Origin: Candidatus Magasanikbacteria bacterium GW2011_GWC2_37_14 | GTDB lineage: Bacteria; Patescibacteriota; Patescibacteriia; Magasanikbacterales; UBA922 | Reading direction: 5' to 3' | Assembly: GCA_000990355.1 (NCBI GenBank) | Contig: LBSX01000009.1 | Coordinates: forward strand, 1-51,698 | Length of the DNA stretch: 51,698 nucleotides | Part shown: positions 7,985-48,624 of the stretch, one piece after another | Position numbering within the stretch: the stretch's first letter is position 1 | Layout: the number at the start of each line of letters is the position of its first letter | Made by a program: the position numbers and the translations under genes | Notes under the pieces: model-generated | Database searches by the model: none | What the model was told of the DNA's origin: nothing | Seen by the model: the letters and a program-made list of their open reading frames with translations, nothing else

Positions 7985-8022
7985 GTGGCCATTGTTTAGA
8001 CAAGACTTTACCTGGCCCGGTA

Positions 8023-8068
8023 CCATGTACCAAGAAGGTACATGGCCATGAACCCTTGTGGTTCATGG
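8023..8068. repeat. Two adjacent hairpins upstream of the GIY-YIG gene
   Basis: ccatgtacc-aagaa-ggtacatgg and catgaacc-cttgt-ggttcatg. Confidence 0.85.
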
Positions 8069-8086: not shown

Positions 8087-8350
8087 ATGTTTTATACTTA
8101 CAATTTACTAATGAGTAACAAACAAATTTATACAGGCTATACCGCAGATTTAAAAAGGAGAATACATGAACACAATTGTGGAAGCAATAACACCACAAAA
8201 AAATATTTACCAATACTGCTAATACACTACGAAGCTTTTATAGATGAAAAAGATGCCAAAAGACGTGAAGAATATTTCAAAACAACTAAAGGTAAAACAA
8301 CATTAAAATTAATGTTGAAAGAATATTTAAGTCAGACCATGGCCCGGTAG
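8087..8350 (+). CDS. GIY-YIG endonuclease-domain protein
   Basis: MFYTYNLLMSNKQIYTGYTADLKRRIHEHN...DEKDAKRREEYFKTTKGKTTLK; stop TAG lies in the tRNA-Lys 5' end. Confidence 0.88.
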   Translation: MFYTYNLLMSNKQIYTGYTADLKRRIHEHNCGSNNTTKKYLPILLIHYEAFIDEKDAKRREEYFKTTKGKTTLKLMLKEYLSQTMAR

Positions 8351-8413
8351 CTCAGCTGGTAGAGCAACAGCCTTTTAAGCTGATGGTCCTGGGTCCGAAT
8401 CCCAGCCGGGTCA
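8341..8413 (+). tRNA. tRNA-Lys (UUU)
   Basis: ggcccggtagctcagctggtagagcaacagccttttaagctgatggtcctgggtccgaatcccagccgggtca; acceptor GGCCCGG/CCGGGTC. Confidence 0.93.
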
Positions 8414-8424
8414 CAAAACGAAAA

Positions 8425-23046: not shown

Positions 23047-23424
23047 TCACAATCCCGAGGAGGAACGACGAGGGATCCCTTTTCTATGAATTAAAGGTTG
23101 TGTTACCAATAAATCAATGTACCAATCCCAGGCCAGATCTTCCCATTTAGGGTTTAATTTATTAATTAATTCCTCTTTCTTTTTACGATTATATTTTTTA
23201 ATTTGTAATTCTCTAATTAAAGATTCTTGTTTAGTTTTTAATATTTCATAATATAGCAATCTAACGCAACCATACTTTTTTGTAAAACCTTCTACTAATT
23301 TTTGTTTATGCTCGTAAACTCTACTGATTATATTACTTGTAGAACCGACATACAAGGTACCAGATTTACTAGCCATGATATAAATGTAATGTTCATTAAA
23401 TAACATTGGTATATCATGAAACAT
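23047..23424 (-). CDS. GIY-YIG endonuclease-domain protein between inverted repeats
   Basis: HYIYIMASKSGTLYVGSTSNIISRVYEHKQKLVEGFTKKYGCVRLLYYE. Confidence 0.9.
   Translation of the reverse strand: MFHDIPMLFNEHYIYIMASKSGTLYVGSTSNIISRVYEHKQKLVEGFTKKYGCVRLLYYEILKTKQESLIRELQIKKYNRKKKEELINKLNPKWEDLAWDWYIDLLVTQPLIHRKGIPRRSSSGL
23051..23083. repeat. Left inverted-repeat arm of the GIY-YIG element
   Basis: aatcccga...gagggatccctttt pairs with 23435..23472. Confidence 0.85.
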
Positions 23425-33682: not shown

Positions 33683-33754
33683 AGTAAAAATATTATACCA
33701 CATTTTTAAATACACTACTAATATATCCACAAGGGAACAAGATATTCTTTGTTT

Positions 33755-33813
33755 TGTCATCCTGAATTTATTTCAGGATCCCAATGAGATGCTGAAATAA
33801 ATTCAGGATGACA
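33755..33813. repeat. 59-nt TGTCATCCTGAA palindromic repeat between pilM and cysS
   Basis: tgtcatcctgaatttatttcaggatcccaatgagatgctgaaataaattcaggatgaca. Confidence 0.95.
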
Positions 33814-43112: not shown

Positions 43113-43907
43113 ATGCGTTTTACTCTTATTTGTTTATTCTTATTTTTAATACCAAATATAGTTTTTGGTGTTAATTTAAACGTACCTTTTACTTCCCAAG
43201 CTCCCGAAGGCAATTGGCGACAACCTTGGCAAGACACTTGTGAAGAAGCTAGTATTGTTATGGTAGATAATTTTTATCAAAAGAACATCAATAAAAAAAT
43301 AGAAGTTAACCAAGCCAAAAAAGAAATTCTACAAATTCTTAAAATTAAAGAAATTAAATGGGGAAAAAGCTTGGATGAAAATGCTGAACAAGTTGTAAAA
43401 TTAATAAATAATTACTTACCTTGGGAAGCCAAGTTAATAGAAAATCCTAGTTTAGATCAAATAAAAAACGAAATAGACAATAATCAGCCAGTAATTATTC
43501 CTGTTTACGGCAAAACTTTAAAAAACAAAAATTTCAAAAATGGCGGACCAATTTATCACATGTTAGTAATTTCCGGGTTTGACAACGAAACCCAAGAATT
43601 TATAACCGAAGAGCCTGGCACCCGTAATGGCCTTGACTTTCGCTATTCTTTTGCTACAATAATGTCTGCTTTACATGACTATTTGCCCTATGGCAAAACA
43701 GCTTTTGGACCCAAAATAGCAATTTTTACCAGTAAAGAAATTAATGGATCTGGTAAATTGGATGCCGACAATGATGGCTTAACCAAAGAGCAAGAATTTA
43801 ACTACGGCAGTATTACTTGGTTAAATGATAGCGATGGAGATGGTTATGCCGATGGTTTTGAAGTATTAAACGGCTACTCACCAACCAAAAAACTGGAAAA
43901 ATTATAA
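43113..43907 (+). CDS. Secreted C39-like cysteine peptidase
   Basis: NVPFTSQAPEGNWRQPWQDTCEEASIVMVDNFY, HMLVISGFDNETQEFITEEPGTRNGLDFRY. Confidence 0.8.
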   Translation: MRFTLICLFLFLIPNIVFGVNLNVPFTSQAPEGNWRQPWQDTCEEASIVMVDNFYQKNINKKIEVNQAKKEILQILKIKEIKWGKSLDENAEQVVKLINNYLPWEAKLIENPSLDQIKNEIDNNQPVIIPVYGKTLKNKNFKNGGPIYHMLVISGFDNETQEFITEEPGTRNGLDFRYSFATIMSALHDYLPYGKTAFGPKIAIFTSKEINGSGKLDADNDGLTKEQEFNYGSITWLNDSDGDGYADGFEVLNGYSPTKKLEKL

Positions 43908-43913
43908 AACACT

Positions 43914-43977
43914 CCGAGATCCCCTGCCTGCCCTGTCTGCCGACAGGCAGGCGGCAGGCAGGTCTAATGGTAGGACA
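43914..43977 (+). pseudogene. Partial tRNA-Gln 5' copy interrupted by a 40-nt palindrome
   Basis: tccgagatc[ccctgcctgccctgtctgccgacaggcaggcggcaggcag]gtctaatggtaggac versus intact tccgagatcgtctaatggtaggac at 43984. Confidence 0.9.
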
Positions 43978-43983
43978 ACATAC

Positions 43984-44054
43984 TCCGAGATCGTCTAATG
44001 GTAGGACTCGAGACTCTGAATCTCGATATCTTGGTTCGAATCCAAGTCTCGGAA
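43984..44054 (+). tRNA. tRNA-Gln (CUG)
   Basis: tccgagatcgtctaatggtaggactcgagactctgaatctcgatatcttggttcgaatccaagtctcggaa. Confidence 0.93.
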
Positions 44055-44072
44055 CAAAATAGTAAATAATTT

Positions 44073-48534: not shown

Positions 48535-48624
48535 TGTCATCCTGAATTTACCTGCCTATCGGCAGACAGGTTTCAGGATCTTTTATTATTATAAGAGAGA
48601 TGCTGAAACTAGTTCAGCATGACA
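48535..48624. repeat. TGTCATCCTGAA repeat with a nested 20-nt palindrome; supplies the integrase stop codon
   Basis: tgtcatcctgaattta[cctgcctatcggcagacagg]tttcaggatc...ctgaaactagttcagcatgaca. Confidence 0.93.

Follow-up and report, generated by a model that had tools for sequence, protein, structure and literature searches.

Free-standing GIY-YIG homing endonuclease genes, of the T4 and fungal mitochondrial types, place a small GIY-YIG gene at a conserved gene. Gene-restoring mitochondrial insertions bring in an ORF together with a gene end that replaces the displaced one; atp6 of Allomyces is an example. Rickettsia palindromic elements are palindromes of about 100–150 nt that insert even in genes, and tRNA genes are classic integration sites. 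The REP sequences found with RAYT transposases are palindromes of 20–40 nt, present in many copies and paired with one nuclease family (PMC3733652). Non-intron insertions coding for GIY-YIG proteins are known from CPR bacteria, where they lie in rRNA genes and have been described as sparse; for most rRNA insertions of all kinds in this lineage, the reported position was the top or the base of a stem-loop (PMC11270868).

The locus described here lies in the window, the whole 51,698-nt stretch of contig LBSX01000009.1 from Candidatus Magasanikbacteria bacterium GW2011_GWC2_37_14, where an intact tRNA-Gln gene is preceded by a palindrome-split copy of its own 5' end. The locus is probably the ORF-less form, non-autonomous or decayed, of a family of tRNA-targeting, gene-restoring elements that combine a GIY-YIG gene with a palindrome. 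This kind of element is widespread and apparently undescribed; searches of the open-access literature yielded no report of such a tRNA/GIY-YIG/palindrome element.

The tRNA-Gln Locus and Its Orthologs

The intact tRNA-Gln(CTG) gene occupies 43984–44055 on the forward strand (ARAGORN; Rfam RF00005, 65 bits). Upstream of it, nt 1–9 of a displaced partial copy, TCCGAGATC (43913–43921, +, identical to 43984–43992), are separated by a 40-nt insert (43922–43961) from nt 10–24 of the same copy, GTCTAATGGTAGGAC (43962–43976, +, identical to 43993–44007), and the 7-nt spacer AACATAC (43977–43983) leads on to the intact gene. When the 40 nt are removed, the 24-nt partial copy matches the intact gene at 24 of 24 positions, which places the insert between nt 9 and 10. 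The sequence-only reading had described a clean palindrome insertion into a partial copy of tRNA-Gln, for which the intact gene supplies the empty site, and had seen neither obvious target loss nor a long target duplication. This description was borne out; the junction is ambiguous by one base, the last G of the palindrome doubling as G10 of the tRNA, with an extra C on the left.

The insert is composite. What had been read as one 40-nt palindrome is a real palindromic insert, but it actually consists of two nested 20-mers of the same family, CCTGTCTGCCGACAGGCAGG (43932–43951) splitting the centre of CCTGCCTGCCGGCAGGCAGG, and with its one-base overlap onto G10 it reads CCTGCCTGC + CCTGTCTGCCGACAGGCAGG + CGGCAGGCAGG. 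The genome has a single copy of the 40-mer. Chance is ruled out, since dinucleotide shuffles gave 0 matches to the 40-mer, and the inner 20-mer belongs to a genome-wide palindrome family with about 20 copies in its own genome against 0 for a reversed-pattern control.

The partial copy had also been placed directly upstream of the intact gene; the 24-nt copy stands, but together with AACATAC it comes nearer to a 31-nt tandem repeat that includes a few nucleotides of 5' flank (AAACAC / AACATAC). No ORF is left between the two tRNA copies in the window, and Rfam reported only the tRNA at this locus, with no other known RNA family. The absent ORF and the flank that the duplicated unit seems to include would suit two unrelated events, namely a 31-nt tandem duplication of the tRNA-Gln 5' end followed by a chance palindrome insertion in the neutral copy, the GIY-YIG neighbours described below being a separate matter. 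We regard this account as unlikely, partly because of the orthologous locus in a relative.

The conserved upstream neighbour is a C39-like peptidase gene with a C-terminal TSP3-like repeat (43113–43907, +; Pfam PF13529, E 1.8e-13). In G007, G008, G018, G019, G028, and G029, an ortholog of it (47–61% identity) immediately precedes tRNA-Gln; orthology via the downstream 561-aa protein gave no useful relatives. The locus of G008 (L352) is empty, with nothing between the peptidase gene and the tRNA. That of G029 (L110) carries TCCGAGATC, a hairpin, GTCTAAT, a GIY-YIG ORF, and then the intact tRNA-Gln; the same nucleotide as in the window was hit (after nt 9), with a different hairpin and with the ORF present, which argues against two unrelated events. 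The emptiness of G008 and the split of G029 after the same nt 9 show that the upstream segment is a tRNA copy, as the earlier reading had supposed. Thus, occupied and empty alleles both exist at this tRNA-Gln, G029 being occupied with an ORF, G008 empty, and the window ORF-less; in the occupied allele the displaced copy is split, yet the restored tRNA retains its whole sequence. Other hairpin-split tRNA-Gln fragments, interrupted at other nucleotides, were found in G058 (L328) and G052 (L337).

The 20-mer Palindrome Family

The family is patchily distributed: CCTGYCTRYCGRYAGRCAGG occurs in 26 of the 59 relatives at 1–21 copies each. In the genome of the window, several 20-mers sit cleanly within other repeats of which empty copies exist (L015 and L021 filled versus L008 empty; L016 and L018 versus L003). 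One copy in the window lies inside a TGTCATCCTGAATTTA/TTTCAGGATC repeat (48551–48570, −), and an empty copy of this repeat (33754–33780, +) matches the joined flanks at 100%. Hairpin repeats of the type TGTCATCCTGAATTTATTTCAGGATC are abundant (window 16819, 17839, 33753, 39345, and others), and in at least seven of the copies in the genome the 20-mer occupies the same place, which suggests that the composite has itself spread. One 20-mer lies in frame within the CTP synthase gene pyrG of this genome (L013, 1271–2917, −), where it forms a 7-residue insert (DLPAGRQ) relative to PDB 3nva, beside the conserved SERHRHRYEFN motif. The 20-mer also occurs far from any GIY-YIG ORF. This readiness to insert at many other sites is a further point for two unrelated events at the tRNA-Gln locus.

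The flank profile of 153 distinct 20-mer sites showed no tetranucleotide and only a depletion of T at position −1. Although many examples look by eye as if inserted in stem-loops, stem-loop junctions were not enriched among the 153 sites relative to shifted positions, which leaves insertion into hairpin loops unsupported.

Short palindromes in many copies, clean insertion without target duplication, and two Y1_Tnp genes in the genome of the window are what would be expected if a Y1/RAYT (IS200-type) transposase mobilized the 20-mer as a REP sequence. However, Y1_Tnp was not found in G006 (21 copies), G018 (18), G052 (14), G025, G026, G045, G016, or G058, the GIY-YIG domain (PF01541) is present in 59 of 59 relatives, and neither the 20-mer nor its flank profile shows an evident GTAG or CGTC tag. 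With at least eight palindrome-bearing relatives in which no Y1_Tnp was found, RAYT mobilization as the general cause is largely refuted, and we consider it highly improbable for the present 20-mer.

Recurrence of Palindrome-Split tRNA Fragments

The layout recurs in many genomes, usually with a nuclease gene, a pattern beyond the view of the sequence-only reading. We collected 62 distinct clean 20-mer insertions in 5' tRNA fragments, each with an intact same-strand tRNA less than 420 nt downstream; 40 of them are exact over 9+5 nt, and 15 tRNA types are represented. They came from a phylum sample (382 genomes), from a scan of GTDB genomes with TGGT plus the 20-mer, and from the relatives; the genomes are mostly metagenome bins, and the sequence was read in stretches of up to 8 kb rather than as whole genomes. 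The TGGT pattern was adopted because alignment A1 lacked conserved stretches, and the excess of D-loop insertions is uninformative because this pattern demanded TGGT before the 20-mer.

The distances from fragment to tRNA fall into two groups, 11–131 nt (n = 29) and 205–334 nt (n = 33). The long-distance group largely carries an ORF for a GIY-YIG protein of about 80 aa between fragment and tRNA, and such an ORF is present in about half of the 62 overall. The full form of the element consists of a palindrome-split 5' tRNA part, an ~80-aa GIY-YIG ORF on the tRNA strand, and an intact copy of that tRNA. Judging from the titles of the sequence records, the hosts are Patescibacteria groups (WWE3, Gracilibacteria, Parcubacteria, and Microgenomates), Flavobacteriia, Chlorobiota, and Nitrospirota, and they include the named Flavobacteriia Muriicola marianensis (L268) and Flagellimonas allohymeniacidonis (L267). 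Mirror cases, in which the intact tRNA is followed by the ORF and then by a 3' fragment, are also present. Loci L357, L358, and L360 appear to be tandem arrays of units made of a tRNA fragment, a hairpin, and a GIY-YIG gene, with three 20-mers in L357.

As the fragment repeats part of the tRNA gene in direct orientation, it could be taken for the attachment-site scar of an integrase-borne island, or the interruption for a tRNA intron. Neither is at all probable: the ORF between the copies encodes a GIY-YIG protein, it is usually the 5' side that is repeated, the mirrored 3' cases notwithstanding, and Rfam at the gathering score reported only tRNA at 14 such loci, with no group I or II intron. 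ARAGORN found no tRNA in the joined flanks, since the fragments lack 3' halves.

In a palindrome-enriched sample, 76 of 231 tRNAs are preceded by a copy of their 5' part, and almost every such copy contains a hairpin; the hairpin nearly always lies in the non-functional copy. The latter regularity would also be expected if the hairpin acted in RNA, by keeping the intact tRNA and the fragment from mispairing or by tuning the expression or processing of the nuclease transcript, and in the predicted fold of the window RNA the fragment pairs with the 3' strand of the intact tRNA. We consider this explanation very unlikely. Equilibrium folding of 15 ORF-less cases gave a mean probability for the native acceptor stem of 0.32 with the hairpin and 0.33 without it, compared with 0.955 for the tRNA alone, which leaves the role of tRNA-fold insulator unsupported, and the position of the hairpin in the fragment varies from nt 9 to 45.

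GIY-YIG Genes beside tRNA Genes

The association was also viewed from the nuclease side, using 119 GIY-YIG ORFs that had enough flank and were chosen without regard to the palindrome. A same-strand tRNA lies within 200 nt downstream of 39 of the 119, and an opposite-strand tRNA downstream of 0; on the upstream side, 15 same-strand tRNAs and one opposite-strand tRNA were counted. Many GIY-YIG ORFs do not adjoin tRNAs. Ahead of 29 ORFs stands a 5' copy of the downstream tRNA, with longest exact 5' matches of 9–37 nt; matches to the 3' half are mostly 5–9 nt, near the shuffle value of 6. A strong stem was present in 26 of these 29 tRNA fragments compared with 36% of same-locus controls (p ~1e-9). 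The hairpins are G+C-rich, belong to several families (CCTGCC, CCGCC, TCCCGA, and others), and are placed from nt 9 onward. This joint occurrence of duplication and hairpin, both here and in the palindrome-enriched sample, argues against two unrelated events.

The nuclease is a single domain of about 80 aa (PF01541, E 3e-14 to 1e-18), in which the catalytic-type residues Y5, Y16, R26, and E62 are invariant (alignment A1). A phage origin was considered and rejected, as only distant GIY-YIG proteins (31–32%) were found in Rhizobium phages.

A second element in the window has the nuclease gene in place. Here nt 1–9 of a partial tRNA-Lys (8014–8022, +) are followed by two adjacent 23-nt palindromes, CCATGTACCAAGAAGGTACATGG and CCATGAACCCTTGTGGTTCATGG (8023–8068), which split the partial copy, by a GIY-YIG ORF (8087–8350, +; PF01541, E 3.2e-14), and by the intact tRNA-Lys(TTT) (8341–8414, +; ARAGORN), inside which the ORF ends.

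Other GIY-YIG ORFs have repeats for neighbors. The window holds one at 23176–23391 (−; longer ORF 23050–23406) that is not tRNA-adjacent and has inverted GAGGGATCCCTTTT / AAAAGGGATCCCTC repeats on both sides. The non-tRNA ORFs of L202, L107, L164, L193, and L082 stand beside or between copies of GTCATTGCGAG/TGTCATTC, which suggests a second repeat family tied to GIY-YIG, and that of L361 (G058:C2:17176) separates the arms of a CCCCGTTAGAGATA hairpin. In L363 (G033:C11), the ORF stands behind a protein gene, after its 3' end, and an apparent hairpin-split copy of this gene end lies downstream; this looks like the logic of the tRNA element in a protein gene.

Pairing of Nuclease Clade and Hairpin Family

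The nuclease clade tracks the hairpin family. On a tree of 57 tRNA-associated nucleases, which rests on 79 columns, hairpin class required 13 changes, compared with at least 20 in 200 shuffles (mean 26.5), and class A versus the rest required 5 (shuffles: minimum 14, mean 19). Taken alone, this result is weaker than it looks, because the class A loci were drawn from several phyla and those of classes B–D mostly come from one family; the comparison of hairpins A, B, and C is likewise partly confounded by locus sampling. The isotype of the tRNA required 31 changes (shuffles: minimum 38, mean 42), and it switches inside well-supported nuclease clades (Asp/Thr/Ser at 100/100), which implies that the 5' copy arises at the new target site.

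A blind test is free of this sampling weakness. A search profile built from 22 palindrome-associated (class A) nucleases, all taken from genomes other than the 59 relatives, ranked ORFs of G016, G019, and G012 as the top three (117, 114, and 107 bits; next 95), and each has the 20-mer 21–26 nt ahead of it. Among the other 105 ORFs listed in the search, only G058:C2:49596 has a 20-mer ahead. In some copy-rich genomes, such as G018 (18 copies), all relatives of the class A nuclease score low.

A Possible Mechanism

The anatomy could be accounted for by a self-restoring homing event. In such an event, the nuclease would cut an uninterrupted tRNA gene, and repair would copy the element into the cut gene, the left side of the break pairing with the 5' fragment that the palindrome splits, and the right side with the intact copy. 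With the ends arranged in this way, the essential tRNA would be restored and the displaced 5' part would keep the palindrome. ORF-less forms, the tRNA-Gln locus included, may have decayed or may be moved in trans. Several points count against the element reading: the intact tRNA still has the presumed target, many GIY-YIG ORFs do not adjoin tRNAs, the 20-mer also occurs far from such ORFs and in genomes with only distant class A relatives, and the tRNA-Gln locus itself has no ORF.

Palindromes of the same families are also found at unrelated sites, and each family goes with one clade of the nuclease, in a manner reminiscent of REP and RAYT. We tentatively put forward, with somewhat less confidence than would favor it outright, the wider proposal that single-domain GIY-YIG nucleases of Patescibacteria and Bacteroidota mobilize families of short palindromes, as a second REP-type system with no Y1, part of which lives in tRNA genes, breaking one copy with a palindrome and regenerating another.

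Many short palindromes and small GIY-YIG genes have had no assigned role that we found, and the link offers them a joint, testable one, that of a mobile element invading essential tRNA genes without destroying them. The layout also occurs in named Flavobacteriia strains, so tests of the proposed cutting and copying need not be confined to uncultured lineages. Annotators of these genomes should note that a tRNA fragment next to a tRNA gene may be the scar of such an element.

Comparison with Known Systems

The CPR rRNA insertions (PMC11270868) share with the present elements the lineage, the non-intron nature, and the encoded GIY-YIG protein; they differ in residing in rRNA, and the main text of that report contains neither "tRNA" nor "palindrom". 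REP/RAYT systems share short palindromes, many copies, and an apparent pairing with one nuclease family (PMC3733652), whereas here the partner is GIY-YIG rather than Y1, the characteristic tag is not evident, and the palindromes are present where Y1_Tnp was not found. The single in-frame case, in pyrG, recalls the Rickettsia palindromic elements, which insert even in genes; unlike these, the palindromes here are 20 nt long, are spread widely over phyla, and are linked to GIY-YIG and tRNA genes.

As with GIY-YIG homing genes, a small nuclease gene sits at a conserved gene, and both tRNA halves could act as homology arms for copying. In contrast to those genes, the nuclease consists of one catalytic domain of ~80 aa and has no obvious DNA-binding part, it resides in tRNA genes, and a palindrome-split fragment is left behind together with a restored gene. 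In the gene-restoring mitochondrial insertions, too, the inserted ORF supplies the gene part that was displaced; the present elements differ in being bacterial, in occupying tRNA genes of many isotypes, in usually restoring the 5' side, and in carrying a palindrome in the displaced part.
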